DNA from: a virus
Virus record (IMG/VR): IMGVR_UViG_3300048790_000123
Span: 1-20,085 of that record
Strand: one strand, 5' to 3'
Length of the DNA: 20,085 bases
Shown: one piece after another, positions 692-13,798 of the stretch
Numbering within the stretch: position 1 is the stretch's first letter
How the letters are laid out: every line of letters starts with the position of its first letter
The notes under the pieces: generated by a model
What the model was told of the DNA's origin: nothing
The model's database searches: none
What the model saw: the letters and a program-made list of their open reading frames with translations, nothing else
Made by a program: the position numbers and the translations under genes

Positions 692-1633
692 ATGACCAAT
701 GATCGAGCAGCAAGGCAGTTTATTACAGATTTCTTTTCCGAGCCCGGAAGCGGCGAAAGCCTTTCACCTGTTTCTGCAAAGCCTGCTCCAAAGTCAAGGC
801 AGCTCCGAGCCACCTTCCGGCCCACCCCAAATGAGTCCACCGGATTCCCAGGAACCCGCGCGTTCTCACCACGTCGTACTGACCGAGGAACGGCAGGAGC
901 AACTGTTCAACCAACGCGCCCAGGGGCTGAGCGCGCACCAGCGAATTCTGCGGGCTCAAACGACCTTGAGGGACGGCGTGCTTCCCTTCAGCAAGCCGGG
1001 GGAGGTTCCACAGCCAACCAGCCAGCCGAGTCCGCGGATGAAGGGAGTGTTCGCCGACGGGGGCGCGGCCCCAGTGGGGCCAACAGCGCCCGCACTTCCG
1101 GTACCGCAGACCAGCCCACAACCAAGCGTCCCGGCCGCCCCAAGAAAGACAAAGCTCCAGCGCTCCCCGCAGCCATCCAGAAGCTAGTCCCCAAATCCGA
1201 CACTCCCTCAGCCTCTAAGCTGATCCCCACCGAGAACGAGCGCGCCAGCGCCACACGCCTGTTCCGCGAGATCGGCCAGAGGTTCAATGAGAACCGGAAG
1301 AAGTCGAAGACCGCGGCCTACGCCGGCTTCCGTCACGATCTGATGGACAACCTGGACACGCTGGTCATGGGCGGCGCGATCGATTTGAAGGAAGCGACCT
1401 CGATCATTACCAATCTGGAGCAGTACACCAAGGAGACCGAGGCTGAATCGACCGAGACCCCGGCGACGATCCTTGGAAGGTGGCTCAGGATGGACGCGGC
1501 TGAGATTGCTGGATTGTCAGTGCCTGTGGAAGAAGTTGTGGAAGATGAGGAAAACTTGGAGGTTGAAGAGGTCGAGCTAGAGGAGCCTACTGAAATCGAG
1601 GCTGCCGATCCTGTTCAGGATATTTTCATTTAG
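692..1633 (+). CDS. Hypothetical protein with AT-hook-like segment and acidic tail; first half disputed with another frame
   Basis: ATG 692 follows AGGAG (682-686) by 5 nt; a GTG at 674 in the same frame is an alternative. The 313-aa product has a Pro/Arg/Gly-rich, low-complexity first half. A basic KRPGRPKKDK segment (AT-hook-like core GRP) lies near residues 148-157. A well-formed helical region follows (about residues 180-270), then a Glu-rich tail ending DPVQDIFI. The second half looks clearly coding. Up to about 1187 the frame starting at 699 reads at least as well as a protein, so this gene may start by frameshift from that frame or the two may overlap. The 3' end overlaps the opposing methyltransferase by 4 nt (1630-1633). 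Function unknown; a packaging or DNA-binding role would be guesswork. Confidence 0.6.
   Translation: MTNDRAARQFITDFFSEPGSGESLSPVSAKPAPKSRQLRATFRPTPNESTGFPGTRAFSPRRTDRGTAGATVQPTRPGAERAPANSAGSNDLEGRRASLQQAGGGSTANQPAESADEGSVRRRGRGPSGANSARTSGTADQPTTKRPGRPKKDKAPALPAAIQKLVPKSDTPSASKLIPTENERASATRLFREIGQRFNENRKKSKTAAYAGFRHDLMDNLDTLVMGGAIDLKEATSIITNLEQYTKETEAESTETPATILGRWLRMDAAEIAGLSVPVEEVVEDEENLEVEEVELEEPTEIEAADPVQDIFI
699..1187 (+). CDS. Overlapping-frame hypothetical protein (162 aa)
   Basis: ATG 699 lies 9 nt after GAGG (686-689) and opens a 162-codon frame overlapping the first half of the 692-1633 gene. The product starts with an amphipathic stretch (SFPSPEAAKAFHLFLQSLLQ), continues with a helical segment (LTEERQEQLFNQRAQGL) and then becomes Pro-rich. 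These segments look more natural than the Arg/Gly/Pro-rich translation of the other frame over the same bases. Explanations are a separate overlapping gene, a -1 frameshift joining it to the downstream half of the other frame, or a sequencing indel that split one gene. I found no classical X-XXY-YYZ slippery heptamer near the end of the overlap. Confidence 0.5.
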   Translation: MIEQQGSLLQISFPSPEAAKAFHLFLQSLLQSQGSSEPPSGPPQMSPPDSQEPARSHHVVLTEERQEQLFNQRAQGLSAHQRILRAQTTLRDGVLPFSKPGEVPQPTSQPSPRMKGVFADGGAAPVGPTAPALPVPQTSPQPSVPAAPRKTKLQRSPQPSRS

Positions 1634-3522
1634 GAGAATATATCGACGAGTTGGATTCGGCGGCCGATCCATTCCATGCAGCAGACGGCCATTGAGTTTC
1701 CGAGGGCTTTGTATCGGGGTCCATCCGCAGTTTTCTCGTTGATTTTTGTGTATCCGTCAGGGAACGCTTGCAGGCGTTCACACTCGGTCGGAGTTAATCG
1801 CCTGACTTGCATGGCTTGAACGACTCCGTTGTGTCTGCGCGATCCGTTGTTGCTGTCGAGAGTTGCGTGCGTATCGCATTCGCGTGTTCCGCTCTGTGAG
1901 GATTGAAAACCTGACACGTAGGTTCTGCTGCTGCTGCCCCCGCTGGACGCGCGCAGCGAAGCCCGGTCGCAGGGCTCAGGAAGTGAACCGCCTTCGCGGC
2001 CACGGAGGTTGAAGGCGATCAGGTCTGTGCGGTCTGTGCCGTTTCGTTTGTTGTGCGCCGCCGGAGAGTCCGAAGCCGAACGTAGAGTTCCAGCAACATC
2101 GGGCGCGTAAGCCACGGCCACCTGTCCACCAGCGTTTGCATGGCTCCCCGCGAAGTTCATCGAGCGAAGAGTCGGAGCGATTTCGCCCGAGTCGAGGCCT
2201 GAGTCTTTGCAGGAGAATGCGATGGGTGCGGTTCCTCCGTGTTGAGTGTTGTAGGTCATGTATCCAGGAGCATCACCGCATTGAGGGCAGACAAAGGGTT
2301 CGAGCATCTCAGTGCCGGGCAGATAGTGAACGCCGAATTCGATCATGCAGTCGAGACAGTAAGACGTGCCGACGCGCTCTCGTGCGACCGTTACCAGCGG
2401 CGTTCCCCGGCCCGTCCTATCCTCGCTCGCGTCGAAGCCGTCGGCGCGGAGGGAGTGGGTGACGGTTATGTTGCCGACATTGTAGCTGCCTGGACGAGGG
2501 TGGCTTCGTACAGTGTCGGTAATTAGGCCGTATTCTTCGGCTCCACGGTCGGCATAAGGACGGCAGGAAACGGGTGCGGTCACCAGCATTCCTGTTTCAG
2601 CGTCCTGCTGTGTTGCCGATCCTGCAGCTTTCCCGTTGGCGTTCAAGCATCCGGTGACGAACGTTTCGCTCTCGAAGTCCAATCGCCCGTTGGGGTCGCC
2701 ATGCGCATTGCAGGCGGTTGCTACGTCAATAGGTCCGCCAGTGTTATTTCCGTCGAAGGCTTGAGGGACGTGTCCGCCGTCGCAGTCGAAGTCGGTTCCG
2801 AGGCCACCGCCAGCAGAGCGGCGCGAAGGGATGGTGGGAGCGCTTTCCCTCTTTTCTCTGCTCGGCGGAGTATGCCCTTGCAGGCTGTGGCGCTCAAAAA
2901 GAAGCGGCGGTCTACCTCGCCAGTCTCCAGAATCGCGGATAAGGAAGACGCGACGGCGCCGTTGCGGAACTCCGAACCATTGCGCGTCCAGAACTGCCCA
3001 CTCGACGAGTCCTCGGGGTCCAAAAGCCACTCCGGTGTTTTGCCATTTGTTTTTGGGTACAGCAAATTCGGTTCCAGCCAGTTCTCCAACCACTGCCGCA
3101 AAGTCCAGTCCTGAGTTGGAAGAAAACAGCCCTGGGACGTTTTCTGCGATGGTCCAGCGGGTTCCCCAGAGTTCCCGGCAGATTTCAACGATTCGCATAG
3201 CTTCAAAGAAGAGTCCACTGCGTGCTCCTTTCAATCCGGCTCGTTTGCCGGCGACACTCAAATCTTGGCAGGGAAATCCGAAGACGACAGCATCTACAGA
3301 GCCGATTTCAACGAGCATTTCGCGAGTTATCCCGCAGATGTTGCCCAGGTTAGGCACATCTGGATAGCGATGCTTTAGGACGGCGCATGGAAATTTGTCG
3401 ATTTCGGCGACCGCGGCACATTCCCAACTTAACGGTGGGCTACACCAAGCTACCGACGCAGCTTCTATCCCGCTGAATAAACTGATGAAACGCATGAGGA
3501 TGAGTTTATTGCAAACTTTCAT
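1630..3522 (-). CDS. DNA (cytosine-5) methyltransferase, phage orphan type
   Basis: This 630-aa protein carries the ordered C5-methyltransferase motifs: LFSGIEAA (I, about 15-22), GFPCQDLS (IV, about 82-89, catalytic Cys85), AENVPG (VI, about 126-131), PQRRRRVF (VIII, about 186-193), RRLTPTECERLQAFPD (IX, about 574-589) and KALGNSM (X, about 605-611). It transfers a methyl group from S-adenosylmethionine to C5 of cytosine. The variable region between VIII and IX is very long (about 380 residues), Gly/Thr-rich with loose repeats, and includes two CxxC pairs (residues 389-392 and 412-415). No restriction endonuclease is next to it, so protection of phage DNA from host restriction is the likely role. 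It is the only confident leftward gene here. ATG 3522 has a weak upstream GGA; ATG 3495 is an alternative start. Confidence 0.96.
   Translation of the reverse strand: MKVCNKLILMRFISLFSGIEAASVAWCSPPLSWECAAVAEIDKFPCAVLKHRYPDVPNLGNICGITREMLVEIGSVDAVVFGFPCQDLSVAGKRAGLKGARSGLFFEAMRIVEICRELWGTRWTIAENVPGLFSSNSGLDFAAVVGELAGTEFAVPKNKWQNTGVAFGPRGLVEWAVLDAQWFGVPQRRRRVFLIRDSGDWRGRPPLLFERHSLQGHTPPSREKRESAPTIPSRRSAGGGLGTDFDCDGGHVPQAFDGNNTGGPIDVATACNAHGDPNGRLDFESETFVTGCLNANGKAAGSATQQDAETGMLVTAPVSCRPYADRGAEEYGLITDTVRSHPRPGSYNVGNITVTHSLRADGFDASEDRTGRGTPLVTVARERVGTSYCLDCMIEFGVHYLPGTEMLEPFVCPQCGDAPGYMTYNTQHGGTAPIAFSCKDSGLDSGEIAPTLRSMNFAGSHANAGGQVAVAYAPDVAGTLRSASDSPAAHNKRNGTDRTDLIAFNLRGREGGSLPEPCDRASLRASSGGSSSRTYVSGFQSSQSGTRECDTHATLDSNNGSRRHNGVVQAMQVRRLTPTECERLQAFPDGYTKINEKTADGPRYKALGNSMAVCCMEWIGRRIQLVDIFS
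2721..3218 (-). CDS. Candidate nested gene in the methyltransferase (same strand, other frame)
   Basis: A 165-codon frame lies wholly inside the methyltransferase gene, shifted by one base. GTG 3218 is preceded by AAAGGAG with a 6-nt spacer, a good SD. The product reads naturally: PTQDWTLRQWLENWL near residue 34, a GQFWTRNGSEF segment near 74, and SATACKGILRRAEKRGKALP near 109-128. From memory, proteins with this 'ILRRAEKRGK-x-LPP' ending are repeatedly annotated in phages next to or within cytosine methyltransferase genes. The same bases encode methyltransferase motifs VI to VIII, so apparent conservation can be forced by that gene. Whether it is translated is unproven; function unknown. Confidence 0.4.
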   Translation of the reverse strand: MDSSLKLCESLKSAGNSGEPAGPSQKTSQGCFLPTQDWTLRQWLENWLEPNLLYPKTNGKTPEWLLDPEDSSSGQFWTRNGSEFRNGAVASSLSAILETGEVDRRFFLSATACKGILRRAEKRGKALPPSLRAALLAVASEPTSTATADTSLKPSTEITLADLLT

Positions 3523-3829: not shown

Positions 3830-4178
3830 GATGGACGATTCCTCTCCCGAGGTTACGATCTCTCCGGCCGACAACGGCCATGTCGTCCGCTGGCACCAGC
3901 GCGGCAGCAAGAAAGACGAGCCAGGCCGCACCGTCAAGCGCGTAGCCATGTCGAGTGATGATGCGCTCGGTCACGCTGCCGAGGCGCTTGGCAGCACAGG
4001 CAAAGCCAAGTCCGCCAAGAAGAAATCTCTACGTTCAGTTGGGCACGCAAGCTCGGCCATCGGCGCCGACGCGTCCGATGCGGGGGATGGTGGTTCGGCC
4101 CCCGCTGCCCACTCAGGTATGCGCACCCGTTCCAGCTCCGTGCGCCGCCGCGCCCGGGTCAGCAGCCGCAGGAGCTAA
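3822..4178 (+). CDS. Small conserved phage-type hypothetical protein (118 aa)
   Basis: GTG 3822 sits 8 nt after AAGGAG (3808-3813), better placed than ATG 3831 in the same frame. The N-terminal half contains TISPADNGHVVRWHQRG and, later, SSDDALGHAAEALG. This resembles a small phage protein pattern I associate with genes near portals ('NG-x-x-V-R' then 'EAL-x-H'), recalled rather than searched. The C-terminal half is low complexity, Ser/Ala/Arg-rich and ends RRRARVSSRRS. Function unknown. It overlaps the upstream gene by 8 nt and probably belongs to the same transcript as the portal. Confidence 0.65.
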   Translation: MDEMDDSSPEVTISPADNGHVVRWHQRGSKKDEPGRTVKRVAMSSDDALGHAAEALGSTGKAKSAKKKSLRSVGHASSAIGADASDAGDGGSAPAAHSGMRTRSSSVRRRARVSSRRS

Positions 4179-4227
4179 CCGCTGCATCCTAATCGGGAGC
4201 AGCAACCATTTCTGAAGGAGGTCTTTC

Positions 4228-4971
4228 ATGACCACGTCCACCGCCCCTTTTGCTTTCACGCCGTACACTCCCTTGGCCACCGCGCCTGTGCTTGCGATTC
4301 AGTTCCTTGGCCAGCTTGACCCTGAATCCGAGTCTCCTGCCGCGCTCGCTTTCGCGCATACGGCTAATCCGGCGCGCACGCCTGACCTGTCGCTCACCGG
4401 AACGTTTGCCGGGTTCCCGGTTCGTGAGGAGCCTTACCGCCACACTCCGCAGGCGACGATTCCTGCGCCCGTGGCAGCGACCCTGCATCTCGCGCCGGCG
4501 ACTGAGCTGGCGGTTCTCGTTCCGACTGCCGCAGGCGGCCACCCCGCTTTTTCGGGCGATTGGATCGTGCAGGCCGCGGACAGCACGTACTCGGTCTGGT
4601 CCGATCTGAAGTTTCGCGCCGGCTTCGATGTTCCCGAGGCTCCAGGCTCCGGTACCGGCCGCTACGGCGCAGGGGAGCACTGGACTCAGCATGGCGATGG
4701 CACGGATTACCCCAGCGAGGGCGGCTCCTTCGGTGTGCCGCAGAACACACCGGTTGCCGAGCCAGCCGCCGCGGCCTTTGCACCCTCCGGCACCATCGGC
4801 GTGGGCTCATCCTTCCGTATTTTGCGTGGGGACCAGTCCGTCGATCCTGCCGTTCATGTGGTCAAGGCTCTCGATTTCGGCTTGGTCAGTTATGAGGCCG
4901 ATGGCGAGACGCTCGAAGTGAGTCGCGATCATGTTGTGCCGGTGAAGGCGGAGCACGACATCTTGGCGTAG
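4228..4971 (+). CDS. Hypothetical protein (247 aa), structural-region
   Basis: ATG 4228 follows a near-perfect AAGGAGGT (4214-4221) by 6 nt, so the start is well supported and expression is probably high. The product is Ala/Pro/Thr-rich with alternating short hydrophobic stretches suggestive of beta structure (for example around FSGDWIVQAADSTYSVWSDL). No signal peptide or convincing membrane segment is seen. I do not recognise the family. It lies just upstream of the portal with the 61-aa gene between, so a head- or packaging-associated role is plausible but inferred only from position. Confidence 0.75.
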   Translation: MTTSTAPFAFTPYTPLATAPVLAIQFLGQLDPESESPAALAFAHTANPARTPDLSLTGTFAGFPVREEPYRHTPQATIPAPVAATLHLAPATELAVLVPTAAGGHPAFSGDWIVQAADSTYSVWSDLKFRAGFDVPEAPGSGTGRYGAGEHWTQHGDGTDYPSEGGSFGVPQNTPVAEPAAAAFAPSGTIGVGSSFRILRGDQSVDPAVHVVKALDFGLVSYEADGETLEVSRDHVVPVKAEHDILA

Positions 4972-4990: not shown

Positions 4991-5176
4991 ATGCCATGGA
5001 CTCCGAGCCAGGCCTCTCGGTTTACGAAGAAGGCCAAGTCGCCGAAGCGCAAGCGCCAGTTCTCGAAAGTGGCGAATTCAGTGCTGGCGCGAACTGGAGA
5101 TGACGGCGCTGCGATACGTGCGGCTAACAGCGCCGTCAAGAAATCTCAGGGGAAGCGCTCCCGTAAGAGAGCTTGA
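4991..5176 (+). CDS. Small basic conserved phage protein (61 aa)
   Basis: ATG 4991 follows AGGAGGT (4976-4982) by 8 nt. The protein begins MPWTPSQASRFTKKAKSP, continues RKRQFSKVANSVLARTGDDG and AAIRAANSAV, and ends GKRSRKRA. The combination 'MPWTP ... H/F-T-K-K-A ... W/F-x-x-VANSVL-x-x-TGD-x-x-x-AIR-x-AN' is a recurrent small phage protein pattern that I recognise from memory as widespread and uncharacterised. It is highly basic and sits immediately before the portal gene. A nucleic-acid-binding or head-associated role is inference. Confidence 0.8.
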   Translation: MPWTPSQASRFTKKAKSPKRKRQFSKVANSVLARTGDDGAAIRAANSAVKKSQGKRSRKRA

Positions 5177-5211: not shown

Positions 5212-6984
5212 ATGGCGAACTTAGTTTTTATCGGTGCAAACAAAAAGTCCGCCAAGCAGGAACACCTCGATCCGAGGTCAAAACACATTTCCGAATGGCG
5301 CGAAAGTTCTGACTCTGCCCGTAACAAAGCGTTGGGCGAGAATTTTTTTAAGAATGCTGAAGACCTATATAACCTCCAAGATGCGATGACGCCAGGGCCG
5401 GTCTATCGGCCTAGCCTCTCGATACCGATGCTTCAAAGAATAATGCTGGAAGAAGCCAACCAAGTCTCAAATCTCAGTCCACGTATGTATGTTTTTCCGT
5501 CCGCGGGCTCAAGTGATCCTTCCTACTCCGGTGCCCAGCAGGCTGATCCAACTCTCGCTTCGACCTCCGCTCGTGATCTAGCTCGGGAGGTATCCCTCCA
5601 AGCTCAATGGCAGATATCCAAGATGAATCTGCATCTCCTGATGGCCGGCTTGACGGCCCGATATTGCGGAGCTGGGTGGATCGTCGCTGGGTTTGATCCG
5701 GATCTTGGCCGAGCCCGCGGCGGCATGTGGGCCAAGTCGATTGATCCGAGGCTTGTTTTCTTCGACCCAGGTACGGACTACACTTGGAACCCGTCCTACG
5801 CTGGCTGGGGCACTTGGATGAATCTTGAAGACGTGCGGCTTAAGTGGCCAGAGACTTCACGCGCGATCCAGCCGAAACACACCAGTGGCGGATTTCAACC
5901 ATTCTCCGGTGATTCAGGCTACGGTATAAGCCAGCCACCAGGGCCGATGAGTTCGATGCCCGGCGCAACCGGGCAGAATTCTAAGACCCAAAGTTCAGAA
6001 TGGCGTGTCCTCGTCAATCACTGCTTCTGCCGCGACTATACGCGCGAGACGGTCGAGAAAGAGGATGTTCCTACAACGTCCTTGATCGATCCAGAAGTAC
6101 GGCTCAAGTATCCGCGCGGCCGATGGATCGTGGAATGTGAGGGAGTTATACTTCAGGACGGTGATAATCCGTACCCGTTGCGCCGTGACATCAACGCTCC
6201 GAGGTTCCCGCTCTTCCCGAACTATGTTCTCCCTCCCCTCTTTGGCCCCTGGGGAATCCCTGTCACCCGCATGACCGAGAACATGCAGCGTCTTGGCCAG
6301 AAGTTCATGTCTCAGACTTTCGAGAATGGTCTGCGTATGAACAACGGTGTATGGTTTCTGGACGAAAATACCGGAATCGATATTGACGGTTTTGGCGGCC
6401 TGCCAGGTGAAGTAGTGACCCTCAAGCCGAACTCGCGTGTTCCGCAGGTTGTCACCCCTAATGCAATCGGGGCGGCATCTCTCCAGGCGGTCGACAAACT
6501 GTTCTCCATGCAGAACGATGTGCTCGGCTTCTCAACTTCCCGCCAGGGCGACCCCGGCGCCGGAAATGTGTCAACGGATCTGTTCGATTCAGCAGTGCTG
6601 CAATCTTCAGGTCTATTGCAGTTGGCCGGGAGATTTTTGAGTGAGACGGCGGAATCGATAGGTACGTTTTTCTTCGACAGCATGTGTAAATTTCAAGCGC
6701 CGGCTACGATGGCTTACCAAGGCCCGGAGGCCCTAACCATGGCTAGTTGGGCGGGCCAGGTCGATCCGGACGGGTTTAGCCTCGCGCTCGATCAGGCCAG
6801 CGTTCGCCCGCTTAGCGAGGCTGTGATTAGAAAACTAACTCCCGATCTGATGAAGGCCGGCGTAATCGGAACTGAGCGCGGTTTGAGAACTCTCGGCTAC
6901 CCCGATGCGGATAACGTCGCAAGCGAGCAGCAAACCCAGATGGCTCTGCAGGCTTTGGCGAAAGTCAGGTCAGGCAAGAAATGA
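5212..6984 (+). CDS. Portal protein
   Basis: The 590-aa product has the length and pattern of portal proteins of podovirus-type phages. An N-terminal helical part is followed by KSIDPRLVFFDPG (about 175-187) and a WGTWMNLEDVRLKWPE segment (about 199-214), then GRWIVECEGVILQDGDNPYP (about 303-322), the usual 'G-x-x-L-x-x-x-x-NPY' turn. A helical region near 350-375 precedes FSTSRQGDPGAGNVSTDLFDSAV (about 440-462), resembling the portal crown and stem area. The dodecameric portal forms the DNA entry/exit channel and motor docking site at one head vertex. Start ATG 5212 follows GAGGGG. Its TGA stop overlaps the next ATG (ATGA). The subfamily could not be fixed by eye. Confidence 0.9.
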   Translation: MANLVFIGANKKSAKQEHLDPRSKHISEWRESSDSARNKALGENFFKNAEDLYNLQDAMTPGPVYRPSLSIPMLQRIMLEEANQVSNLSPRMYVFPSAGSSDPSYSGAQQADPTLASTSARDLAREVSLQAQWQISKMNLHLLMAGLTARYCGAGWIVAGFDPDLGRARGGMWAKSIDPRLVFFDPGTDYTWNPSYAGWGTWMNLEDVRLKWPETSRAIQPKHTSGGFQPFSGDSGYGISQPPGPMSSMPGATGQNSKTQSSEWRVLVNHCFCRDYTRETVEKEDVPTTSLIDPEVRLKYPRGRWIVECEGVILQDGDNPYPLRRDINAPRFPLFPNYVLPPLFGPWGIPVTRMTENMQRLGQKFMSQTFENGLRMNNGVWFLDENTGIDIDGFGGLPGEVVTLKPNSRVPQVVTPNAIGAASLQAVDKLFSMQNDVLGFSTSRQGDPGAGNVSTDLFDSAVLQSSGLLQLAGRFLSETAESIGTFFFDSMCKFQAPATMAYQGPEALTMASWAGQVDPDGFSLALDQASVRPLSEAVIRKLTPDLMKAGVIGTERGLRTLGYPDADNVASEQQTQMALQALAKVRSGKK

Positions 6985-7226
6985 CGGGAGACGAAGGAAT
7001 GCAACCAACAGCCCAGCCAGCGCAGCCCAAATCTACTGTCCCCGTTCACAACTGGCGCGCGCATTGGTTGACTGCTCAGGAGTTTGCCAGGATGATGGGT
7101 CGTGAACCGCAGACTGTTTACAAATGGCTGCGGAATGGCACCTTGGCTGAATTCGGGGTTCCGGTCATGCATTTTCGGCAAGGTAAGCAGCATTCTGGCC
7201 GGACCTTTATTTTGAATATCTACTGA
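6981..7226 (+). CDS. Small helix-turn-helix protein (81 aa)
   Basis: ATG 6981 overlaps the portal stop in an ATGA tetranucleotide, pointing to coupled translation; ATG 6999 in frame is an alternative. Residues about 29-55 (HWLTAQEFARMMGREPQTVYKWLRNGTL) form an excisionase/MerR-like winged HTH: 'W-L-T-x-x-E-x-A-x-x-x-G' then 'T-V-Y-K-W-L-R-x-G'. The downstream segment PVMHFRQGKQHSGRTFIL resembles the wing. The first 25 residues are Pro/Gln-rich. Such proteins bind DNA. Placement between portal and scaffold, not near an integrase, is unusual for an excisionase and raises the possibility of a transcriptional or packaging-related regulator. Confidence 0.8.
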   Translation: MTGDEGMQPTAQPAQPKSTVPVHNWRAHWLTAQEFARMMGREPQTVYKWLRNGTLAEFGVPVMHFRQGKQHSGRTFILNIY

Positions 7227-7359
7227 TCACTCCCTCCTGTTTCGGCTTAGTGTTATTCCCCCGACCCCCATTCCCCTCCATCTTGTTCTATCCTCTCCTC
7301 AATCGCACAAAAGCACCAAGCCAACAAGCTCGTGCCAAGGGCGAACAAGGAGACTCATC

Positions 7360-7416
7360 ATGAACTTTGAATTCAAGGGTCGTCGCAAGTCCAAGAAGGA
7401 AGGCAAGCGCCGGTAG
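7360..7416 (+). CDS. Basic micro-ORF A (18 aa)
   Basis: ATG 7360 is 7 nt after AAGGAG (7347-7352) and the frame stops at TAG 7414-7416. The 18-residue product MNFEFKGRRKSKKEGKRR has nine Lys/Arg. It is too short for standard gene callers, but the SD and spacing are as good as those of the neighbouring structural genes. A small hairpin follows five bases after the stop. Function unknown; it could be a nucleic-acid-binding peptide, or the reading frame could serve as a leader. Confidence 0.5.
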   Translation: MNFEFKGRRKSKKEGKRR

Positions 7417-7421
7417 TTGGC

Positions 7422-7441
7422 CGGGAGGACTTGTCCTCTCG
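7422..7441 (+). other. Hairpin just after micro-ORF A
   Basis: CGGGAGGA (7422-7429) pairs with TCCTCTCG (7434-7441), 8 bp with one G-U pair, around the 4-nt loop CTTG. It begins 6 nt after the stop of micro-ORF A. There is no T-run after it, so it is not a standard terminator; mRNA stabilisation or processing is a possible role. Confidence 0.5.
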
Positions 7442-7509
7442 TTCCAGCTCCGCCGTTCCCTTCTTTCTATCGTCGTCACGTTCACTCCCAGGAAAGGACC
7501 TTGCTCAAG

Positions 7510-7638
7510 ATGGCCGGAACCCCCTCAAAATCTGATTCCCGTGTCGTCAAAGACTTCGGTCAACCCAGGAAGTTTCTGCGTGACATGCGTGCCAAGGCCG
7601 CTAAGAACTCTCGCAAGAGAGCGACCAAGCGGACTTAG
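7510..7638 (+). CDS. Basic mini-protein B (42 aa)
   Basis: ATG 7510 lies 11 nt after AAAGGA (7493-7498), a slightly long spacer; a TTG at 7501 is in frame but too close to the SD. The 42-residue product begins MAGTPSKSDSRVVKDFG and ends NSRKRATKRT, with 14 Lys/Arg, most in the C-terminal half, which should be a basic helix (RKFLRDMRAKAAK). No family recognised. It is the largest member of the run of basic short ORFs between the HTH gene and the 61-aa gene, and most likely a nucleic-acid-binding protein if translated. Confidence 0.55.
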   Translation: MAGTPSKSDSRVVKDFGQPRKFLRDMRAKAAKNSRKRATKRT

Positions 7639-7692
7639 CTCATTCCGGAGACGGCCGCTGCTGTTCCTTCGCGCCCCGTCTTCCCAGCCAGT

Positions 7693-7725
7693 AACGGTAC
7701 AAGTCTTCGGGCTTGTCTATCCGTT
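7693..7725 (+). other. UUCG-loop hairpin upstream of micro-ORF C
   Basis: An inner stem ACAAGTC (7699-7705) / GGCTTGT (7710-7716) closes the TTCG tetraloop, a classic very stable cUUCGg fold in RNA. An outer AACGG (7693-7697) / CCGTT (7721-7725) pairing extends it across an internal loop. It ends 13 nt before the SD of micro-ORF C. No T-run follows, so a terminator is unlikely. Confidence 0.5.
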
Positions 7726-7752
7726 GCAACCCGGAGCGAAGGAGGTACGCCG

Positions 7753-7809
7753 ATGGCAGCTCGTGGAGGAAGACGATCCAAGCGTCAGCGCACCACCGCT
7801 CGCAAGTAG
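7753..7809 (+). CDS. Basic micro-ORF C (18 aa)
   Basis: ATG 7753 is 6 nt after a perfect AAGGAGGT (7739-7746), the strongest SD in this stretch, and the frame stops at TAG 7807-7809. The product MAARGGRRSKRQRTTARK has eight Lys/Arg in 18 residues and no acidic residue. Such a strong initiation site on so short a frame argues for real translation. A GCAA-loop hairpin includes the last two bases of the stop codon. Function unknown; nucleic-acid binding is inferred from charge alone. Confidence 0.55.
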   Translation: MAARGGRRSKRQRTTARK

Positions 7810-7823
7810 AGGAGCAATCCTCT
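7808..7823 (+). other. GNRA-loop hairpin overlapping the stop of micro-ORF C
   Basis: AGAGGA (7808-7813) pairs perfectly with TCCTCT (7818-7823) around a GCAA loop, a GNRA tetraloop. The 5' arm contains the AG of the TAG stop. No T-run follows. Position and loop type suggest an intercistronic mRNA structure rather than a terminator. Confidence 0.5.
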
Positions 7824-7911
7824 GAATCGGCGGTGGCAGGTGGGAACTGGTGGGGGACTAGACCTCACCTTCCACGCCGAAAGCGTTGGATGTGCAAGAC
7901 AGGATGAGGCG

Positions 7912-7968
7912 ATGTGGTGGGCGGTAATCCGGCCGCATCGCCGATTCCCCAAAGGAGACTCGCGATGA
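7912..7968 (+). CDS. Possible micro-ORF (18 aa), weak
   Basis: ATG 7912 opens an 18-codon frame (MWWAVIRPHRRFPKGDSR) whose TGA stop overlaps the ATG of the next micro-ORF as ATGA (7965-7968), as expected for coupled translation. GAGG lies only 2-3 nt upstream, too close for a good SD. The start codon also lies in the arm of a possible hairpin (7909-7917 with 7933-7941). The product is basic like its neighbours. This may be chance. Confidence 0.25.
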   Translation: MWWAVIRPHRRFPKGDSR

Positions 7969-8033
7969 TGAAGTGTACAAAGATTCCGCGCATGATGAAG
8001 AAAGTCGATCGGCGCGTCGGCAAGCGCAAGTAG
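7965..8033 (+). CDS. Basic micro-ORF D (22 aa)
   Basis: ATG 7965 lies 7 nt after AAAGGAG (7951-7957); the frame ends at TAG 8031-8033. The 22-residue product starts MMKCTKIPRMMKK and ends DRRVGKRK, with ten Lys/Arg. Its ending resembles that of micro-ORF A (GKRR). A small hairpin follows the stop by three bases. As for the other members of this run, the strong SD is the main support and the function is unknown. Confidence 0.5.
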   Translation: MMKCTKIPRMMKKVDRRVGKRK

Positions 8034-8036
8034 TTT

Positions 8037-8050
8037 TCCGGATAACCGGA
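8037..8050 (+). other. Hairpin just after micro-ORF D
   Basis: TCCGG (8037-8041) pairs with CCGGA (8046-8050) around ATAA, three bases after the stop of micro-ORF D. The stem is short but perfect; no T-run follows. It repeats the stop-plus-hairpin arrangement seen after micro-ORFs A and C. Confidence 0.4.
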
Positions 8051-8093
8051 CAGTTTAGCAGCACCCAATTCAACCCTCTGAAGGAGCAGCACA

Positions 8094-8279
8094 ATGGCGA
8101 AGATCAAGGAATCGATGGGGAACACATTTAACGAAGCTATCTTGAAGAGCCCATTGACAGTTGGGCGTACCGGCAACGAGCCCGGCCCCGACGTTCACAA
8201 CAACCCCATCGCCATGCCCAAAGATCCGCTCGGTCTGATCCCCAGTGGCGGTGATATGCCGCATTGGTCGGAGAAGTAA
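8094..8279 (+). CDS. Small hypothetical protein (61 aa)
   Basis: ATG 8094 follows AAGGAG (8081-8086) by 7 nt. The 61-residue product (MAKIKESMGNTFNEAIL ... DMPHWSEK) is polar, Pro/Gly-rich in its second half and has no recognisable domain. Unlike the preceding basic micro-ORFs it is close to neutral. It is placed before two head-assembly genes and is probably a minor head-region protein, on position only. Confidence 0.65.
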   Translation: MAKIKESMGNTFNEAILKSPLTVGRTGNEPGPDVHNNPIAMPKDPLGLIPSGGDMPHWSEK

Positions 8280-8866: not shown

Positions 8867-9847
8867 ATGGCACTGAAAGACATTCTCTCGAACGCCAAGT
8901 ATTCCGACGACATGATTCTGAATCTGCCCGACGGCAGCACGGTCAATGTCGGCGAGATTCGTGCCCTTCCCGTTGCCGAGCGTCAGGCGCTCACCGCACA
9001 TATTGAGCAGCGTCAGAACACTCTCGGCCAGGCCGAACTGGTTTTTGCGTCCAAGTTTCAGCAGGCTGTGCAGGCCGGCTGGCTGGTTCCGGACGCTAAA
9101 GGCGAGTATGTGGTCGCGCCACGGGCCAGTGCTGCCGCTGCCCAGCCCACTGTCGCTCAGATTCGTACTGCCGCTGCCGCGGAAATGGGCGTCGATGAGA
9201 ACGATCCGCTCCTCGGGCCGGTTGTCAAGATGTTCAAGCAAGAGCTGGCTACGCGCGATCAAACGCTCACCGAGATTCGCGCTGAGATGGCCAAGATGCC
9301 CGGCCAGTTTGATTCGCTCAAGTCCACCCTCACCGACAGTCTCGGCAAGGTGACCGGCGTGGTTAACACTTCGGTTGGCCGCTATCTGAACGACCAGTAC
9401 CAGTCGCAGTTCGCGCAGGCCACCAAGGATCTGCCGAAGGGAGTGTCCGTTGGTTATGAGGACGCTTACAAGTATGCTTCGGAGCGTCAGCTCAAGGACA
9501 AGGACGGCTTCCTGCTCATCAATGAGGCAGTGGACCGGTTGACGTGGAAGGAGCGCCAGAAAGCAGAACTGGCGGCTGAGCGCGCAGACTTGATCGCCAA
9601 GACCACCAAAGACCTTGAAGAACAAAGCCGGATAAAGACATTGACGCCCCCTCAGTCGCGTAATGCGCTGCACACCGCTCCGGTCAAGGATGGCGAGTTC
9701 AACCCTTTCAACGAGCGGACCGATTCCAAGGGGAACAAGGTCAAGGTTGTCAAGTCGTTTGAAGAAGCGATGTCGGAAGCGATGTCGGATGACGATGTGC
9801 TGAAGTCAGCGCTTTCGACCGCGAGTTTCGCCGGCGGCATTCAGTAA
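8867..9847 (+). CDS. Putative scaffold (capsid assembly) protein
   Basis: This 326-aa protein is strongly helical and charged, with long predicted coiled-coil stretches (ERQALTAHIEQRQNTLGQAE; DRLTWKERQKAELAAERADL; the segment from about residue 135 to 170) and a Pro/Ala-rich break near 85. Its C-terminal region is acidic then basic (KGNKVKVVKSFEEAM), as in scaffolds that dock onto the capsid shell. Size and the position directly before the major capsid gene fit a scaffold, which organises procapsid assembly and leaves before packaging is complete. No catalytic protease motif was seen. ATG 8867 follows a purine-rich AAGGAAAGTGAG. Confidence 0.75.
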   Translation: MALKDILSNAKYSDDMILNLPDGSTVNVGEIRALPVAERQALTAHIEQRQNTLGQAELVFASKFQQAVQAGWLVPDAKGEYVVAPRASAAAAQPTVAQIRTAAAAEMGVDENDPLLGPVVKMFKQELATRDQTLTEIRAEMAKMPGQFDSLKSTLTDSLGKVTGVVNTSVGRYLNDQYQSQFAQATKDLPKGVSVGYEDAYKYASERQLKDKDGFLLINEAVDRLTWKERQKAELAAERADLIAKTTKDLEEQSRIKTLTPPQSRNALHTAPVKDGEFNPFNERTDSKGNKVKVVKSFEEAMSEAMSDDDVLKSALSTASFAGGIQ

Positions 9848-9948: not shown

Positions 9949-10935
9949 ATGGCCAATAGCGTGGTTGGACTGGGACTAGCATCGCCGCCGGTACAGCTCT
10001 CGAACACCGTCAACGCGATCTCCCAGAAGTTTATCGTCCCCGTCCTCGGCGACAACGTGTTCAAACCCAGCCCGGTTTTCTGGGCGCTGACCCGCGAGGG
10101 CAAGCGCTTCGGAGCCGGCGAGTTGATCTTCCCTGAAATCTACCAGGAAGAACTCCCCGGCGGCGCATACTTCGGTGACCAGTTGCTCGACACTTCGGTT
10201 GTGGACTCCGTGCAGCCTGCGAACCAACAGTGGAAGCCGTACCGCCAGCCTGTCGTGATTCCGATCACCGACATCATCCTGAATCGCGGCGGTTCGAACA
10301 ACCTGGACATCATCCGGGCGAAATTCCAGACCGCATCGGGCTCGTTCCTGCAGAAGCTCTCCCGCGCTTTGTGGCACACGTCGCCGCAGAACACCAGCCT
10401 GGACGTGGACGATTTGAATTCGTGGGTCGTGTCAACCACCAACACCATCGCGGGCATCAACCGCTCGTCCTCGGCGAACGCCTGGTGGCTGGCTGCAACT
10501 GCGGTGGGCGGCGGCTCAGCCGCGCTCTCTTCAGCCACCGCCGAGCCCGGCTACCAGTCCGTTACCTGGGGCTACGACGAACCCGATCTCTTTGTGATGA
10601 ACCGGACCTCTTACGCAGCTTTCAAGAATCAGTTTGTCGCGCAGATCCGCTTTGGCCAGGGGATGCAGGACGACGAGGCTCTGCAGGTCGGATTCCGCAA
10701 TCACTTCCTGTTCAACAACGCCGTGACCGTGGCTGATTATTTTGCCACTGCCAATCAGGCGCTGCTGTTGAACTCGAAGTACATCTTCCCGGTGTTCCAC
10801 GAGGCGGATTACTTCAACGTCGATCCGTTCCTGAAGCCCTCGAATCAGCGCGTCCTGGTTTCATGCATGTACCTGACCTGGAACCTGTCGTGCATCTCGC
10901 CCCGTATGAACGTGGCGTTCACTTCGATCACCTAA
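9949..10935 (+). CDS. Major capsid protein
   Basis: The 328-aa product fits an HK97-fold major capsid protein. It has an N-terminal arm, then VFWALTREGKRFGAGELIFPEIYQ (E-loop-like region, about 47-72), a GGAYFGDQLLDTS stretch, NQQWKPYRQPVVIPITDIILNRGG, a central variable region, and a C-terminal part with PDLFVMNRTSYAAFKNQF and the usual 'D-x-x-V-x-N' style beta strands ending QRVLVSCMYLTWNLSCISPRMN. It forms the icosahedral shell. ATG 9949 lies 9 nt after GGAG (9936-9939) and is preferred to an in-frame TTG at 9925. Scaffold upstream and a small beta-rich protein downstream support the call. Stable hairpins flank the gene, fitting a highly expressed mRNA. Confidence 0.88.
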   Translation: MANSVVGLGLASPPVQLSNTVNAISQKFIVPVLGDNVFKPSPVFWALTREGKRFGAGELIFPEIYQEELPGGAYFGDQLLDTSVVDSVQPANQQWKPYRQPVVIPITDIILNRGGSNNLDIIRAKFQTASGSFLQKLSRALWHTSPQNTSLDVDDLNSWVVSTTNTIAGINRSSSANAWWLAATAVGGGSAALSSATAEPGYQSVTWGYDEPDLFVMNRTSYAAFKNQFVAQIRFGQGMQDDEALQVGFRNHFLFNNAVTVADYFATANQALLLNSKYIFPVFHEADYFNVDPFLKPSNQRVLVSCMYLTWNLSCISPRMNVAFTSIT

Positions 10936-11528: not shown

Positions 11529-12809
11529 ATGAGCCAATGGTCCCTCGTTGGAGATGCACTGATGTCTCTTCGGGAGCAGGCAGCAGATCCCCCGTCTGCG
11601 CTCCCGGCCCCGTCCAGCGTCGCCGCGGCGGGCACTGGAGGCGGTACGCTGGCTCTCTGGTTCACTGCGACCCAACTCACCCCTTGGGGCGAGTCCGCGG
11701 CCTCGACGGAGGTCACACTGACCGCTCAGGCCGTCGGTTCTACTTTTACGATCACAGGCAACTGTTCCTTCGCTGCGACTCAGATTCGCGTCTACTTCAC
11801 GCTCTCCGGCGCCGGTGGCGAAGATCGCTATCTTCCGTACACAGTTCCGACCGGCGGCATCGGCTCGTTTTCGATTGCGTTCACTCTATCTTCGACGGGG
11901 ATTGCACAGGGCTTTGCACCGTCGCGGTCTTCGGCGTGGCTTCCAGATACGGATGGGACGGCGCTGAGTGCTGCGGCCCTGTACCGTTGGATTAACGAGG
12001 GGCTGGACGCAGCGACCGCTCTTACTGAAGGCGTTCGCGATGTGACGGGTATTCCCTCGACTGCGGGCCAGGCTCAATATCAGGTCGTATCTAACTGGCG
12101 CAAGTTGACTTCGGGCTTCTACGATGGGTACCCGATCACGATGGGCAGCAAGTCAGATATTTTTCGCCGATCGAACGTCACAGGAATCTCGGGAACCACA
12201 GTTCTCAATCAAGATTCTGTAGTGCAGCAGGTTGAACTGTATCCGCAGTCGTCGCGCACGTCAGGAAACGGCACTCTGAATGGAGCACTGAGCGCCACCG
12301 CGACGGCCATTCCGTACACTCCCGGCAATTCTGGATGGGTGCTTGGTTTTGGCCTGGCGCTGATCGGGCCGTACCCAGCCGATCCTTCTGCCTCAGAAAT
12401 CATTTACTATTCCGGCAACGCTTCCAACTCCCTTTCACCCGTCACCCGCGGCATGGGTGGGACGATTGCTCAGGCGTGGCCATCAGGCACGTCAGTGATG
12501 GAAGCCAACATCTATTTTTCAGGTATCCGGTATCCGCTGCACTATTCGCGGGGTCAATCAGGGAATCAGTTGCAGCTTCCTCCGGCGTGGATTGACGCTT
12601 TGAAGGATTATCTTTCTGCACGTTTCCATGGCGCTGAACAAGACCTTGAAGGGGCAGGGGCTTTGCTGAAACAGTTTGAGCAGAAATGTCAATCGATCAA
12701 GGGAAACCGTGAAGTGATGAGTCCGCGGCAGGTGCAGGTGGGTGGGAGTACGGGACCGGAGGTCGCGGTTTCGATGGGCGGTTATTTCGGGGGAGTCATA
12801 ATCCCTTGA
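11529..12809 (+). CDS. Head-tail adaptor/connector-like protein with Ig/FN3-like N-terminus
   Basis: The 426-aa product starts with a helical leader, then an FN3/Ig-like beta domain (about 30-110, with LWFTATQLTPWGESAAST and TQIRVYFTLSGAGGED). The adaptor-like segment follows: AALYRWINEGLDAATAL (about 149-165) and STAGQAQYQVVSNWRKLTSGFYDG (about 177-200), recalling P22 gp4/T7 gp11-type adaptors. A beta insertion contains SEIIYYSGNASNSLSPVTRGMGG. A helical C-terminus (PPAWIDALKDYLSARF onward) completes the fold. Such proteins ring the portal and link it to the tail nozzle. ATG 11529 follows GGGAGAG by 5 nt and lies just after a terminator, so it needs a promoter or read-through. The class is a judgement from pattern and order. 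Confidence 0.75.
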   Translation: MSQWSLVGDALMSLREQAADPPSALPAPSSVAAAGTGGGTLALWFTATQLTPWGESAASTEVTLTAQAVGSTFTITGNCSFAATQIRVYFTLSGAGGEDRYLPYTVPTGGIGSFSIAFTLSSTGIAQGFAPSRSSAWLPDTDGTALSAAALYRWINEGLDAATALTEGVRDVTGIPSTAGQAQYQVVSNWRKLTSGFYDGYPITMGSKSDIFRRSNVTGISGTTVLNQDSVVQQVELYPQSSRTSGNGTLNGALSATATAIPYTPGNSGWVLGFGLALIGPYPADPSASEIIYYSGNASNSLSPVTRGMGGTIAQAWPSGTSVMEANIYFSGIRYPLHYSRGQSGNQLQLPPAWIDALKDYLSARFHGAEQDLEGAGALLKQFEQKCQSIKGNREVMSPRQVQVGGSTGPEVAVSMGGYFGGVIIP

Positions 12810-12877
12810 AAACAAAATACTTATACGCCGAAAAATTCTCCTTCTCCTACTACAGTGTCGATGGTAAACTTCAATCC

Positions 12878-13798
12878 ATGGACACTCAAATTGCGATATA
12901 TTCACTTATCGATCCGCGGACGAAACTGCCTTTCTACGTGGGTAAAACGAACGACCCAAAGATACGGCTCAAAAGCCACCGCGCAGGAAGGGGGACAACG
13001 CCATCGGCAGTTTTCATTCGGGAAATACGTGCAGAAGGGCATCGTCCTGAAATGGAAATTCTTGAACTCTGTGATGAAAAGAATTGGCAGGATCATGAAG
13101 CCTTCTGGGTTGAGCTCTATCAGTTCAGATTCGGTGAAACTCAGATTCTTAACGTTATGGAAGGCGGGGTTCAAGTAGGTAGGTTCATCGGCCACTCAGA
13201 CGCAACAAAGGAACGTTTACGTCAGATGTTCAAGGGTCGCGCTATTCCGCAAGAAGTGCGCGAGAAAATCAGTAAATCGCTTACAGGCCTGAAGCAGTCT
13301 TCAGAGACCGTAGCGAAAAGATTTTTCACGTATTCAAAGCGCCGTGTCGAGAAAGGCTTGCCTCCGATTGGGCAAAATCATGAGCGTGAAGTTCAGATGC
13401 GCCGAGATGAGCGTAAGAAAAAAGGGGTAATGGTCCATGGCTCGGAAGAGTATCGGCGCAATGCCGCAGAGAAGCAGCGTGCGTATTATGCGTCACTGAA
13501 TGACGAGCAGAAAGAGGCTGTGGCCGCTATTCGGCGCGGTAAACCAGGGGCCAACGCTGGAAGGAAATTCGGACCTTTATCGCCAGAGTTAAAAGCCAAA
13601 TTGTCAGAAATTCACAAACGACGTTTGGCATCTTTATCCCCTGAACAAAAAGAAGCACGGATGGCCGCAGCAAGAAAAGCTCAACCGGAGGCTTGGCGTA
13701 CTTTTCTCGCTTCTAAAACAAAAGAAGAACGCAAAGCTATGATGGCGGCAGCAGACGCGGCGAATCCAATGAAGCAAAAGGCTCTGCAAGGCGGTTAA
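12878..13798 (+). CDS. Free-standing GIY-YIG homing endonuclease with NUMOD3 modules
   Basis: From ATG 12878 (306 aa) the protein opens with AIYSLIDPRTKLPFYVGKT, the GIY-x10-YIG core as IY and YVG. It continues with R30 and H34 (PKIRLKSHRAG), then EAFWVELYQF with the catalytic-type Glu, and ends the domain at LNVMEGG. Two NUMOD3-like DNA-binding modules follow (GHSDATKERLRQMFKGRA; REKISKSLTGLKQSSETV), then a long Lys/Arg-rich helical tail with repeats of the type LSPE/LNDE-x-K. These enzymes cleave DNA to spread themselves. It is wedged between adaptor and nozzle genes, is less GC-rich by eye, and its first in-frame start is TTG 12806, overlapping the adaptor stop, with GGGAG 10 nt upstream. 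The ATG has no clear SD. Confidence 0.88.
   Translation: MDTQIAIYSLIDPRTKLPFYVGKTNDPKIRLKSHRAGRGTTPSAVFIREIRAEGHRPEMEILELCDEKNWQDHEAFWVELYQFRFGETQILNVMEGGVQVGRFIGHSDATKERLRQMFKGRAIPQEVREKISKSLTGLKQSSETVAKRFFTYSKRRVEKGLPPIGQNHEREVQMRRDERKKKGVMVHGSEEYRRNAAEKQRAYYASLNDEQKEAVAAIRRGKPGANAGRKFGPLSPELKAKLSEIHKRRLASLSPEQKEARMAAARKAQPEAWRTFLASKTKEERKAMMAAADAANPMKQKALQGG

Follow-up and report, generated by a model that had tools for sequence, protein, structure and literature searches.

The head-gene region of an uncultured virus (record IMGVR_UViG_3300048790_000123) raises the question of what lies between the stop codon of a small HTH gene (7226) and the following ORF (8094), an interval of 867 nt in a packed genome. 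"The window" means here the whole stretch of DNA that was analysed, 20,085 bases. A preliminary description had put this apparent gap at about 870 bases and had placed in it four ORFs of 18, 42, 18 and 22 codons, each preceded by an SD and with Lys and Arg making up a third to a half of each product. We checked the ORF coordinates and translations in the window, and all four micro-ORFs, named o1 to o4, were found within 7227-8093 exactly as described, to the base. The measured K+R content is 33-50%, an SD precedes each ORF, and a basic cluster stands at the C-terminal end of every one of them. The features of the region are collected in Table 1.

Table 1. Features of the cassette and of its neighbours in the window
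Feature	Position	Strand	Description
Portal gene	5212-6984	+	Weak match to SU10 portal, below the curated cut-off
Small HTH gene	6981-7226		HTH_17 match just over its cut-off
Box 1	7247-7254	+	TTAGTGTT; leader-alignment consensus tTaGTGTT; candidate promoter or operator element, putative function
Box 2	7288-7308	+	CTATCCTCTCCTCAATCGCAC; leader-alignment consensus cTAtccT.tcc.tAATCGCAC; putative function
Leader hairpin	7305-7335	+	GCAC...GTGC, just 5' of the o1 SD; pairing read by eye from the alignment
o1	7360-7416	+	18 aa, MNFEFKGRRKSKKEGKRR; 50% K+R; SD AAGGAG, spacing 7
o2	7510-7638	+	42 aa; 33% K+R; SD AAGGA, spacing 11
Element A, hairpin A1	7647-7683	+	7647-7653 pairs with 7677-7683; begins 8 nt past the o2 stop
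Anti-SD heptamer	7666-7672	+	CCTTCGC in the A1 loop; complement of GCGAAGG (7736-7742), which overlaps the o3 SD
Hairpin P2	7691-7727	+	Between A1 and the o3 SD; sequence variable
o3	7753-7809	+	18 aa, MAARGGRRSKRQRTTARK; Arg-rich (MASRGGRRSTRRRRTAARK type); 44% K+R; SD AAGGAGGT, spacing 6
Element B, long hairpin	7827-7880	+	Invariant loop GGTGGGGGAC at 7849-7858
Near-invariant stretch	7883-7904	+	GCGTTSGATGYGCAAGACAGGA, 3' of hairpin B, ends GCAAGACAGGA; from alignment
Stem P4	7902-7948	+	Variable, directly 5' of the o4 SD; inner pairs swap GC/CG/AU among loci
o4	7965-8033	+	22 aa; 45% K+R; SD AAGGAG, spacing 7
Downstream gene	8094-8279	+	61 aa, not basic, clade-conserved; dN/dS 0.16; marks the cassette end
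Scaffold gene	8867-9847		Without family match; name from position only
Capsid protein	9925 or 9949 to 10935	+	NF033394 capsid_maj_Podo, 116 bits (cut-off 80); PHROG 9953

Short ORFs of this kind may arise by chance. We counted the ATG ORFs of 12-50 codons that have an SD and at least 30% K+R, both in the region and in 2000 dinucleotide-preserving shuffles of it. Four such ORFs were found in 7227-8093; the shuffles gave a mean of 0.0035 and a maximum of 1, and four were reached in none of the 2000. On either strand of the remainder of the window, no ORF of this class was detected. The reading of the four frames as chance ORFs was therefore rejected.

The surroundings agree with the preliminary description as well. 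The ORFs, which span 12 to about 50 codons in this group of phages, are small enough to be missed by gene callers in a packed head-gene neighbourhood, and the placing beside portal and scaffold genes is broadly right, except that the name of the latter is positional. Across the clade, the cassette sits between the portal and capsid genes. Among loci with portal differences of up to 20%, capsid protein identity is mostly 92-98%; in the distant locus L065, the portal of which is 62% identical, it is 88-89%. Several other genes of the window were recorded. A fifth small basic gene (4991-5176, plus strand; 61 aa, 30% K+R, with a 7-nt SD) lies just 5' of the portal gene; it is recognisable in most relatives, in some of them away from the portal gene, and searches of NCBIfam and Pfam gave no match for it. 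A GIY-YIG domain protein (PF01541) is encoded among the structural genes at 12806-13798 (plus strand) in DNA with a G+C content lower than the surroundings, and is probably an inserted homing endonuclease. A C-5 cytosine-specific DNA methylase (PF00145) is encoded at 1630-3522 on the minus strand, opposite to the structural genes.

A portal search of viral contigs yielded relatives at 68 loci; since these are uncultured contigs that are related to one another, the locus counts given here are not counts of independent events. In 54 loci (the window included), the genes o1, o2 and o3 have the same position and order, and no locus that spans the region is without o2 or o3. In 51 of the 54, o4 was called too, with its SD, frame and charge kept; the exceptions are L065, where it is absent, and the truncated contigs L030 and L032, where it was not called. 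L065 serves as the outgroup, and the outgroup evidence consists of this one contig: its next gene follows almost directly 3' of o3, and it has o1-o3 and element A but neither o4 nor element B. A further contig of 74.5 kb (L083), recovered with an o2 profile, carries all four micro-ORFs and has an antisense ORF of 212 aa (3863-4501, minus strand) between the HTH gene and o1, which indicates that the cassette is separable from the portal gene. That the cassette can gain members is indicated by two loci (L049, 2800-2859; L050, 5630-5689) in which an extra basic micro-ORF of 19 aa with an SD (MAKSTKVSRRVARKSAHRY) lies between o1 and o2. Three other loci (L015, L038 and L039) have about 500 extra bases between o4 and the 61-aa gene.

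Outside this clade, the searches returned little. Among sequenced phages nothing real was found for o2 or for the region, and the portal had no match; the only capsid match was that of Myxococcus phage Mx9 (25.5% identity), in which the portal-capsid interval holds ordinary annotated genes. Prokaryote genome contigs searched for the capsid protein or for the o3 start motif gave none, and thus no link to a host or a prophage. When the viral collection was scanned for parts of element A, of element B and of the o3 start, matches were confined to this clade, with one per contig, apart from three DNA-pattern matches (L128, L130 and L142) that look, on reading, like chance in unrelated DNA.

To describe the selection on the four frames, dN/dS was estimated by Nei-Gojobori counts on distinct sequences. 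The values are 0.49 for o1, 0.42 for o2, 0.32 for o3 and 0.37 for o4, higher than those of the portal (0.08) and the capsid (0.06); that of the HTH gene is 0.21. Codon position 3 holds 43-51% of all differences in the micro-genes. Both comparisons proposed in the preliminary description were run. As to the stops or indels in homologues that it had named as refuting signs, the frames stay open and length changes come in whole codons; as to start, frame, basic tail and synonymous ratio, the SD, the frame and the charge are kept and dN/dS falls within 0.32-0.49. These data bear on the explanation that the whole interval functions as a single non-coding RNA of about 800 nt, with the ORFs as by-products. 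The conserved RNA elements described below and the low synonymous variation of o3 would fit such an RNA, but the third-position bias and the codon-sized length changes do not, nor do four well-spaced SDs kept amid variable sequence, an o1 whose Lys/Arg composition is kept despite sequence turnover, or an outgroup that has o1-o3 and element A without element B. A purely non-coding RNA is thus largely refuted by the codon pattern, and we regard it as highly improbable. From the shared order and SDs in 54 loci, the position-3 bias, the dN/dS values and the exclusion of chance, we concluded that o1-o4 are almost certainly genuine protein-coding micro-genes under purifying selection.

Every copy of every peptide has a net charge of +6 to +13 and a pI of at least 11.1. 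In the relatives, o1 is 12-23 aa long with 43-69% K+R, a charge of +6 to +9 and an SD in all 54 loci, and ranges from MARRHRKEKKRK to MAHRKRQETKKERRAAAKRK. The charge is kept as sequence and length drift, which fits what is expected of a non-specific polyanion binder, and o1 and o3 both look like binders of this type. The o2 peptide has a conserved core, KDFGQPRKFLRDMRAK, and nine invariant columns, F22 and D25 being among the invariant residues. AlphaFold2 predicted that its N-terminus is disordered and that residues 19-39 form a helix (mean pLDDT 67.5; about 86 at residues 21-30). Searches with o2, the only one of the four peptides so searched, gave no significant match in Pfam, PHROG or the PDB. 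In o4 the C-terminal half is conserved (RMTKKVDRRVGKRK type). The conserved non-basic residues of o2 and o4 suggest a partner, so that these two peptides might also contact a protein or an RNA. The synonymous difference in o3 is 0.21, as against 0.50 in the capsid gene and 0.71 in the portal gene, and o3 repeats AGA and CGA codons, which are rare in the long genes of the window. The low synonymous difference and the repeated codons point to a second constraint, at the RNA level, inside the o3 gene.

The preliminary description had missed the conserved, covarying RNA structure that the spacers between the ORFs contain. In the alignments, the spacers are strongly conserved as DNA. In the o3-o4 spacer (element B and P4 together), 9 of 27 pairs show double changes and 97.9% of the cells are paired, as compared with 34-49% in a control with slid partners. 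The loop motif of element B is present in 36 of 36 distinct loci; the folding of this element has a z of -3.1 for the window segment and a mean z of -3.3 over the loci, and P4 has a mean z of -4.2 (33 distinct loci). Taken over P2, B, P4 and the o1 leader, the mean z values of fold stability run from -2.1 to -4.2, and that of the o2 coding region is -0.6. A hairpin in the o1-o2 spacer was dropped from consideration, having no excess stability (mean z -0.5). Against Rfam, the spacer RNA gave no match at the gathering score and weak sub-threshold matches only. We concluded that the spacers very probably form conserved RNA structure with compensatory changes.

Element A opens directly behind the o2 stop with CTCATCCC; GGAGACG, a loop that includes CCTTCGC, and CGTCTTC follow in this order. 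In the A1 stem 4 of 7 pairs are changed on both sides and 99.6% of the cells are paired, a result reached by 0 of 500 control shuffles; four pairs are changed together in the outgroup (GGGAGTG with CACTCCC). In 35 of 36 distinct loci, A1 lies 8 nt past the o2 stop; in L065 the distance is 7 nt. The loop heptamer CCTTCGC and its counterpart GCGAAGG are invariant and fully complementary in all 32 distinct aligned sequences, an invariance that leaves no variation for a covariation test. By simple counting, we estimate that a loop of this kind would contain a 7-nt complement by chance in a fraction of a percent of cases. The stretch between the anti-SD and the SD varies from 21 to 92 nt, and P2, which lies in it, folds better than shuffles (mean z -2.1, 35 distinct loci). 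The RNAalifold consensus pairs the A1 loop with the o3 SD instead of forming A1; as the two pairings cross, a pseudoknot would result if both formed. When the o3 coding region was included, nested folding gave the SD pairing a mean probability of 0.07 and mostly favoured alternative partners. We regard the A1 loop and the o3 SD as a candidate pseudoknot. Two other readings of element A were rejected. Translation through the o2 stop was considered because readthrough signals typically have a structure about 8 nt past the stop codon, but single-base gains and losses in the A1 loop (the window, L002, L008) break any frame downstream. The second reading, a pairing between the 3' arm of A1 and GAAGACG within o3, is complementary in many loci but lost in L065, and was dropped.

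The last 60 nt of the o1 leader also fold better than shuffles (mean z -2.6, 35 distinct loci). Further upstream lie boxes 1 and 2, a pair that occurs only once in the window. A sigma-70 scan of this leader recognised no promoter. The two conserved boxes, together with the antisense insertion in L083, suggest a separate promoter in front of the cassette.

On these grounds we are inclined to regard 7227-8093 as a capsid-operon cassette that opens the capsid gene cluster, encodes nucleic-acid-binding basic micro-peptides and in which translation would be tuned by cis RNA elements. For the RNA part of this model, control of translation by the spacer structure seems fairly probable. Predicted SD pairing is highest, among the genes compared, for o1 (0.79) and o3 (0.74), versus 0.40 for the next gene. 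Given the highly paired SDs of o1 and o3, and given that A1 keeps its distance from the o2 stop while the interval from anti-SD to SD varies, we favour coupled translation and dosing of the micro-genes. Element A would control o3 in the following way: the A1 loop would mask the o3 SD; a ribosome terminating on o2 would sit over the 5' arm of A1, the structure would open and the o3 SD would be freed, so that o3 output would be coupled to o2 translation. Element B and P4 may act likewise for o4.

The same arrangement could be expected if o1-o4 were regulatory leader ORFs, in which the act of translation matters and not the product. A basic nascent chain might slow the ribosome near the stop and remodel the RNA that follows, or a long leader might simply be kept occupied. 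The basic cluster that ends each ORF in the window, the constant position of the o2 stop relative to A1 and the variable sequence of o1 would all suit such ORFs. However, o2, o3 and o4 are conserved as amino acids, non-basic residues included, and their dN/dS is well under 1; we consider this explanation improbable.

The preferred reading, that the peptides act as products, leaves the choice of their target. Most simply, they would be nucleic-acid binders made with the head proteins. Their binding to DNA in the head or during head assembly, proposed from charge and gene position, is a tentative suggestion: made together with the head proteins, they might bind the packaged DNA and neutralise its charge during packaging. 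The structured spacers speak for translational control or RNA binding no less than for DNA neutralisation. In an alternative that gives the peptides no role on packaged DNA, they would be RNA-binding peptides of the arginine-rich-motif type that act on the adjacent RNA elements and autoregulate the translation or transcription of the capsid genes. The elements directly adjoin the peptide genes, L065 is without o4 as well as element B, and the synonymous-site constraint in o3 points to an RNA-level function within the gene. Yet the joint loss of o4 and element B in L065 counts as one event, the variability of o1 is too great for sequence-specific recognition of RNA, and peptide-RNA co-variation is inseparable from shared ancestry. 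T4 gene 32 offers a phage precedent for a protein that binds nucleic acid and acts on a pseudoknot in a leader: its mRNA has a pseudoknot 67 nt upstream of the start codon, which nucleates gp32 binding over the ribosome binding site and controls translation of this protein (PMC3014915). The present locus is similar in that a candidate phage pseudoknot lies 5' of a gene for a basic, presumably nucleic-acid-binding product, and differs in that gp32 is a full-size protein, whereas here the candidate pseudoknot would include the SD and follows a micro-ORF stop. Arginine-rich peptides of the lambda N type are short basic sequences able to bind RNA hairpins; in N this motif belongs to a larger, early antiterminator protein, whereas the o1-o4 genes sit with capsid genes. 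Weighing both sides, we judge the solely RNA-directed role to be rather unlikely. In a combined and equally speculative version, the four peptides and the interleaved RNA elements would bind each other to time or dose head assembly, with the stop-proximal pseudoknot coupling one micro-gene to the next.

For the DNA-binding function that we tentatively suggest, two known systems offer themselves for comparison. The J protein of microviruses of the phiX174 type is a single, very small and very basic peptide that is encoded in the head-gene region of an ssDNA phage and binds the packaged DNA. Like J, o1-o4 are tiny, strongly basic and encoded among head genes; unlike this single gene of an ssDNA phage, the cassette has four genes and linked RNA elements, and we know of no such elements linked to J. 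Family searches, made with o2 only, gave no sequence relation to J-type proteins. In adenovirus, a dsDNA virus, Mu and the protamine-like protein VII are basic core proteins on the viral DNA (PMC4189039). The o1-o4 peptides share with them the basic character. The adenovirus core proteins belong to a virus of a different realm and are made and processed differently, and, to our knowledge, adenovirus has neither an operon of four tiny genes nor such cis RNA elements. The preliminary description had known of no described system of this form, and we likewise found none in the open-licence literature, where an earlier mention of one of the peptides as an unnamed small-gene family is possible. On small phage genes, a passage of PMC11323111 cites Fremin et al. 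2022.

The locus shows that the head operon of a tailed phage can contain a whole series of genes too short for the usual gene-caller threshold, and that a diverse clade can keep the order of such a cassette along with its RNA structures. What appears as a gap in a packed phage genome is filled with functional sequence, micro-genes as well as RNA structures. Entry of the peptides into the virion would give tailed phages a protamine-like set of several parts; binding to the RNA elements would make the cassette a new kind of peptide-RNA control.
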